A stretch of DNA of 64,000 bases from assembly GCA_958296045.1 (NCBI GenBank), contig CATQHT010000003.1, forward strand, positions 2,119,246-2,183,245, given 5' to 3'. Both the position numbers and the translations under genes were made by a program. Shown here in pieces: positions 3,207-3,704 of this stretch; within the stretch, counting starts at the first letter, position 1; each line of letters begins with the position of its first letter. Source of the stretch: Rhodothermales bacterium (GTDB lineage: Bacteria; Bacteroidota; Rhodothermia; Rhodothermales; Bin80). The notes under the pieces are model-generated. The model was given only the letters and a program-made list of their open reading frames with translations, was not told the origin of the DNA and did not search any database.

Positions 3207-3242
3207 GTAGCCGAAGGGCCCGAGCCGAGGCAAGGATAGGGG

Positions 3243-3313
3243 AGGTGACGGACGGATTCGAACCGTCGTACGAGGCTTTGCAGGCCTCTGCCTAACCACT
3301 CGGCCACGTCACC
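3243..3313 (-). tRNA. tRNA-Cys (GCA)
   Basis: A full cloverleaf reads on the minus strand: acceptor GGTGACG pairs with CGTCACC, discriminator U73 as expected for Cys, anticodon stem GAGGC/GCCTC around loop CTGCAAA (anticodon GCA), T arm GACGG/CCGTC with TTCGAAT. It is the last of three tRNAs downstream of the rpmB-rpmG-DUF4295 genes on the same strand. Confidence 0.93.
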
Positions 3314-3321
3314 TAGTGCTG

Positions 3322-3606
3322 CACGCCCGGCAGGACTCGAACCTGCAACCTGCGGATTCAGGTTCGTGCCGGTTTCCCGGCTCCCTGGACTATCCCTTCA
3401 CCATCTCCGCGTACGAAGGAAGGTGGTGGCCGTCTAGTCTCTACACCTTCCTCGGCAGTGCCGGGGCTTGGCTCGGGATTGCCATAGGATACCACCCGGT
3501 ATCCCGTAGGTTTCCCCGACTTTGACCACTTACACGCACAGGGTTTCCCCCATGCGGCCCACGTGTCGCAGAAGTCCGCTGCTCTATCCGGTTGAGCTAC
3601 GGGCGC
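3322..3606 (-). tRNA. tRNA-Arg (UCU) interrupted by a group I intron
   Basis: Two exons on the minus strand build one tRNA. Exon 1 is 3606-3570 (acceptor GCGCCCG, D arm GCTC/GAGC, anticodon stem GCGGA, C32 U33 and anticodon UCU). Exon 2 is 3358-3322 (A37 A38, stem TCCGC, T arm, acceptor CGGGCGU, discriminator G). The split lies directly after U36. Joining the exons gives a normal 74-nt tRNA; without the join no anticodon arm can form. Confidence 0.88.
3359..3569 (-). ncRNA. Group I self-splicing intron in tRNA-Arg(UCU)
   Basis: The 211-nt insert between the tRNA exons has the group I marks. The upstream exon ends in U and the intron ends in G (position 3359). The core has GGCAATCCCGAGCCAAGC (plus-strand 3466-3483), closely resembling the P4-P6/Q segment of cyanobacterial and plastid tRNA-Leu introns, followed by GTAGAGACTAGACGG (3430-3444), the P7/P3' segment. 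There is no room for a homing endonuclease. The subgroup (IC3-like) is inferred from these core segments. Confidence 0.82.
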
Positions 3607-3630
3607 ATCAAGAATAAAGAGAACCACCTG

Positions 3631-3704
3631 TCGGGGCGGCCGGATTTGAACCGACGGCCCCTGCGTCCCAAACGCAGTGCTCTACCGGACTGAGCTACGC
3701 CCCG
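3631..3704 (-). tRNA. tRNA-Pro (UGG)
   Basis: The minus-strand cloverleaf has acceptor CGGGGCG/CGCCCCG with discriminator A, anticodon stem CTGCG/CGCAG around TTTGGGA (anticodon UGG), and T loop TTCAAAT. It lies 24 nt upstream of tRNA-Arg and 7 nt after the DUF4295 stop codon, so it is probably co-transcribed with the ribosomal protein genes. Confidence 0.94.

Follow-up and report, generated by a model that had tools for sequence, protein, structure and literature searches.

The Pro-Arg-Cys tRNA cluster and its interrupted gene

The window (the whole 64,000-nt stretch of contig CATQHT010000003.1 of a Rhodothermales bacterium) carries on its minus strand a conserved cluster of tRNA genes in the order Pro-Arg-Cys. 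The tRNA-Pro(UGG) gene (positions 3630..3704) lies upstream and the tRNA-Cys(GCA) gene (3240..3314) downstream of an interrupted tRNA-Arg(UCU) gene of 285 nt (3606-3322), which is composed of a 37-nt exon, a 211-nt intron and a second 37-nt exon. The 5' exon (3570..3606, minus strand; ...GCGGACTTCT) ends with the anticodon bases U34, C35 and U36. It is followed by the intron (3359..3569, minus strand; GCGACACG...GAACCTG) and by the 3' exon (3322..3358, minus strand; AATCCGC...GGGCGTG), which begins with A37 and A38, continues with the stem sequence TCCGC and does not encode CCA. The anticodon loop reads C32 U33 U34 C35 U36 / A37 A38, the slash giving the intron position. The gene is missed by ARAGORN run without the intron option and by the Rfam tRNA model, both of which report just the Pro and Cys neighbours at this place, while ARAGORN allowing introns recovers a tRNA-Arg gene with a 211-nt intron. 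The joined exons fold as a regular 74-nt tRNA-Arg(tct), in agreement with the host gene named in the preliminary description. This fold, together with the intact orthologues found in relatives, assigns the 5' exon to tRNA-Arg(UCU).

Relatives devoid of the intron have an uninterrupted tRNA-Arg(UCU) between tRNA-Pro(UGG) and tRNA-Cys(GCA), the same order as in the window, which establishes the orthology as well as the point of insertion. The spliced window tRNA is identical to these intact orthologues at 64-73 of about 75 positions, the best of them (73/74) being that of G021, a genome where the Pro and Arg genes are seen. The split after U36 is also fixed by the U at the 5' splice site, the G that ends the intron and the junctions, identical in 16/16 intron-bearing genomes; the terminal intron base (omega-G, 3359..3359, minus strand) is G in all 16. 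Mapping of exons and intron and the junctions of the 16 genomes bear out the length of 211 nt and the insertion directly after U36 that had been read from the window. The intron has no ORF of its own in the ORF listing and no room for a homing endonuclease, the feature by which mobile group I introns are recognized.

Group I fold and proposed splicing

The group I assignment made in the preliminary description was checked with an Infernal-type covariance model, where the lack of a hit would have spoken against it. Rfam RF00028 (Intron_gpI) matches positions 3604-3366 over the full model length (1-253) with 57.8 bits (E 4.7e-12), above the gathering score of 50 bits, and the structure counts on 13 orthologues described below support the same identity. 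The fold energy is low (z = -3.0; 0/200 shuffles as low) and P1, P2, P3, P4, P5, P6, P7, P8, P9 and P9.0 were all mapped on the window sequence. The internal guide sequence GGG (intron nt 10-12, 3558..3560, minus strand) pairs with the exon UCU, forming a wobble between U36 and G; the exon pairs are invariant and U36 faces a guide-sequence G in 13/13 orthologues, as expected of a 5' splice site. P1 is short, two of its three exon pairs being G-U, and is prolonged by intron nt 1-2, the first extension pair being G-C in six orthologues, G-U in four and A-U in three. P2 is a hairpin with a GAAA loop (intron nt 14-35, 3535..3556, minus strand). The P3 strands GUGGUC (3524..3529) and GGCCAC (3426..3431), both on the minus strand, form six pairs. 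Those of P7, the guanosine-binding helix, are GACUA (3435..3439, minus strand) and UAGUC (3388..3392, minus strand). The P9 hairpin GCCGG-GAAA-CCGGC (3369..3382, minus strand) was placed by mapping and structure counts.

The structure was tested as 54 group I pairs on alignment A1 of the 13 orthologues (702 cells). Standard pairs occupy 97.4% of the cells, compared to 92.8% after shuffling and 29-43% (at most 42.6%) when the 3' partners were slid. Two-sided changes affect 10 pairs and 34 cells, and the covariation score is 0.163 (0.075 shuffled). Covariation is strongest in P2, with two-sided changes in 6/9 pairs, whereas P1, P3, P6a and P8 have single ones. P3, whose 3' strand is supported by the same counts, is paired in 100% of cells, and every helix, the P3/P7 pseudoknot included, forms in all 13 orthologues. 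P7 never varies; P4, P5, P7 and P9.0 are invariant across the 13 orthologues and so bring no covariation evidence of their own.

These features outline how the intron would be removed. In the transcript of the Pro-Arg-Cys cluster the intron would fold into its P3-P9 core, the guide GGG would grip the UCU end of the 5' exon with the U36-G wobble, and a guanosine bound to P7 would attack after U36. The freed 5' exon end would then attack after the terminal G of the intron, joining the exons to give an ordinary AGA-reading tRNA of 74 nt. The location in the anticodon loop is also that of archaeal-type bulge-helix-bulge introns, which are spliced by proteins, and such an intron could merely resemble a ribozyme. 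We give this reading next to no weight: the match to the group I model is full-length and accompanied by the group I fold, the insertion follows position 36 rather than the canonical 37/38, orthologous introns span 194-277 nt while the enzyme-spliced kind is mostly below 100 nt (PMC4033280), and in the bacterial tRNA-Arg(CCU) case that has been studied the ribozyme does the splicing (PMC7717549).

The self-splicing intron proposed here is probably of subgroup IC3, small tRNA type. Its core is shared by the Arg(CCU) and Leu(UAA) introns of Rhizobium, and it carries GAAA loops on P2 and P9. The Azoarcus tRNA-Ile(CAU) intron likewise follows U36; it is about 205 nt long, bears a GAAA loop on both P2 and P9, and has the guide sequence GUG in place of GGG. 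We take the P7-P9 wording of the Arg(UCU) intron to be very similar to the Azoarcus one, and the GAAA loops and 3-nt guide to bring it closer to Azoarcus tRNA-Ile. The host of the latter is however an isoleucine tRNA, in a betaproteobacterium. Its IC3 intron uses a 3-nt guide sequence (PMC6274277), as does the Arg(UCU) intron. Among 369 genomes of the Cocleimonas class, none matched a strict Azoarcus-like 3' motif.

Bacterial tRNA group I introns are listed for cyanobacteria, alpha- and betaproteobacteria (PMC4033280), tRNAscan-SE 2.0 found fMet and Ile2 cases in 36 genomes (PMC8450103), and the earlier bacterial tRNA-Arg introns interrupt the CCU isoacceptor (PMC7717549). The latter, from Agrobacterium, Rhizobium and Bartonella (BbgpI), share with the window an arginine tRNA host, insertion after U36, the lack of an ORF, a group I core and a similar size (about 200-225 nt vs 211 nt); the Rhizobium redzepovicii copy (L241) has the very insertion point of the window and its 15 orthologues. 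They differ in isoacceptor, the window anticodon being UCU rather than CCU, as well as in the P9 end, the guide sequence and the tree position. By analogy, the Arg(UCU) intron would work like these and like the Azoarcus tRNA-Ile intron. The resemblance to tRNA-Leu introns pointed out in the preliminary description holds for the core and for the anticodon-loop location, common to cyanobacterial, plastid and other tRNA-Leu(UAA) introns, but not for kinship: those introns split their host after U34 and lie on separate tree branches, apart from the clade formed by the Arg(UCU) introns. A tRNA-Leu(UAA) intron is also present in Rhizobium (L240). The intron core also has matches in more than 1200 plasmid records, the majority of them enterobacterial. 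Two of the plasmid introns, of ~213 nt, interrupt unannotated tRNA-Leu(UAA) genes near aac(3)-IId (L238, NC_004464.2 61901-62027, 36.8 bits; L239, CP042640.1, 36.6 bits). Cyanobacterial tRNA-fMet introns belong to the same class but have another host than Arg, and some carry an ORF (PMC5733544). Note that the 22-49-nt "group I introns" of PMC5733544 were dropped as precedents since they are too short for group I.

Distribution and history among relatives

RF00028 was searched in 59 genomes (the own genome and relatives) and host tRNAs were assigned by reading the exons. All 16 sampled genomes of the family have matches (1-3 each). The intron after U36 of tRNA-Arg(UCU) is found in 14/16 of them and in the two genomes sampled from a second family, an initiator tRNA-Met(CAU) intron after U33 in 15/16, and a tRNA-Lys(UUU) intron after U34 in 10/16. 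The survey of tRNA-Arg(UCU) genes proposed earlier gave in this manner an intron common to 16 genomes and intact orthologues in others, and the word sporadic, used beforehand for bacterial tRNA introns, does not suit a family with the same site occupied in 14/16 genomes and in two of a second family. The 194-277 nt range holds for orthologues without assembly gaps. The G004 intron (L059) was assembled with a stretch of N flanked on both sides by the core motif, probably a misjoined repeat. In G008 and G001, which have no Arg(UCU) match, the locus is probably missing from the assembly: the G008 contig stops 2.2 kb past ychF and G001 gave no full-length ychF match. An exact pattern search detected no intact Arg(UCU) gene in family genomes (one G013 match was left aside), and no intact Lys(UUU) gene was found in them.

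Of the 15 families of the order that were sampled, only two have the Arg(UCU) intron. Other members of the order carry Leu(UAA) introns, in two families (L051, L056-L058), or an Ile(CAU) intron, in a single genome. The intron after U36 of tRNA-Ile(CAU) in G023 (L042) has the top score of the survey (89 bits) and a long tree branch. The other RF00028 matches of the order lie in 23S rRNA genes, as introns that have LAGLIDADG-like reading frames (L062, L065 and L162 were read, L064 was assumed from its genus-mates). Beyond the order, about 350 genomes of the phylum yielded just 3 with the core motif. One of these outside genomes, G443 (L230), has a 283-nt group I intron after U34 of tRNA-Arg(UCU), a second, independent insertion site in this isoacceptor. 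Two genomes of the phylum likewise outside the order, G277 and G367 (L229, L231, L232), hold a Leu(UAA) intron of ~725 nt, in which there is a reading frame apparently of HNH type, as well as two tRNA-fMet introns, one of 669 nt and the other of 311 nt. Three Bacteroidetes MAG genomes (YchF kin at 61-63% identity) gave no group I intron match.

A tree built on 54 intron cores unites the Arg(UCU) introns in a single clade (97/85) and the Lys introns in another (100/100). The host tRNA changes 6 times on the tree, the fewest possible (30.5 after shuffling). The separate clades by host argue that the three introns of the own genome are separate old lineages rather than the product of a recent burst, and the single supported clade (97/85) makes the Arg(UCU) intron look inherited within the family, not newly gained. 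Horizontal transfer of this same kind of intron between the two families, or its recent arrival, is less likely than one old insertion but deserves serious attention. It would fit the presence of the intron in only two of 15 families, the kindred introns in other phyla and on plasmids, and the horizontal spread of tRNA-Arg(CCU) introns argued for in the title of a 1999 paper (via PMC7717549). It fits poorly with a single clade by site, with the presence of the intron in every family member where the locus is visible and with the lack of an endonuclease. The YchF tree does not reject a union of the two intron-bearing families (p-AU 0.471), so that it accommodates one gain as well as transfer between them.

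tRNA supply and presumed dependence on splicing

In the own genome 39 intact tRNA genes were found, along with three interrupted ones, Arg(UCU), initiator Met and Lys(UUU). The initiator tRNA-Met intron (L001, C3:1081635-1081833, 64.2 bits) has 302 nt and follows U33. That of tRNA-Lys(UUU) (L003, C2:652771-653132) has 394 nt, follows U34 and scores 29.8-35.8 bits, below the cut-off. For each of the two, orthologues are spread over the family and make up a family-wide lineage of their own. ARAGORN first labelled the host of the latter tRNA-Asn(GUU); this was rejected, an intact Asn gene being present and no other Lys gene being found, and Lys is preferred because a split after U34 supplies the required U-G wobble. 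None of the 39 intact genes reads UCU and none reads Lys codons; the two other CAU genes, with their G1-C72 end, do not encode initiators. The Arg(CCU) gene is uninterrupted. Judging from this gene content, spliced tRNAs appear to be needed for start codons and for the reading of AGA and every Lys codon. Genes for Ile(GAU) and Ala(UGC) were not found in the assembly, which is 96.7% complete, and the tRNA inventory is therefore incomplete; a hidden intact Arg(UCU) copy is unlikely.

Of the arginine codons, AGA is the one least used in the window (3.6 per thousand codons). This rarity, and the fact that splicing is predicted here from sequence, would be compatible with an inactive intron in a tRNA-Arg(UCU) pseudogene, AGA being read by another tRNA. 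Such a state is very improbable given that exons and intron core are kept, with compensatory pair changes, in two families (16 genomes), that no other UCU tRNA was found in the genome and that AGA is used by 26/42 large ORFs of the window. The data are best explained by a small tRNA-type self-splicing group I intron that interrupts the sole tRNA-Arg(UCU), is inherited vertically and whose splicing the cell would need, a reading that we hold with high confidence. The dependence of the cell on splicing is deduced from the failure to find an intact Arg(UCU) gene. A further role, namely that the Met, Lys and Arg(UCU) introns at three anticodon-loop positions are kept as gates on tRNA supply through guanosine- and Mg2+-dependent ribozyme splicing, is a speculation that we consider improbable; if correct, initiation and the decoding of Lys and AGA codons would be tied to the state of the cell.

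A search of mainly open-access literature turned up neither an Arg(UCU) host nor any earlier mention of these introns in this lineage; as subscription literature lay mostly outside its range, the evidence for novelty is weak. The Arg(UCU) isoacceptor and apparently the phylum Bacteroidota join the hosts of bacterial tRNA group I introns. All three interrupted genes escape standard tRNA finders, so that such genomes seem to lack essential tRNAs. The initiator, lysine and AGA-reading tRNAs of a whole bacterial family appear to depend on ribozyme splicing, and this family lends itself to studies of how mobility is lost in vertically inherited introns and of any function that these may have.
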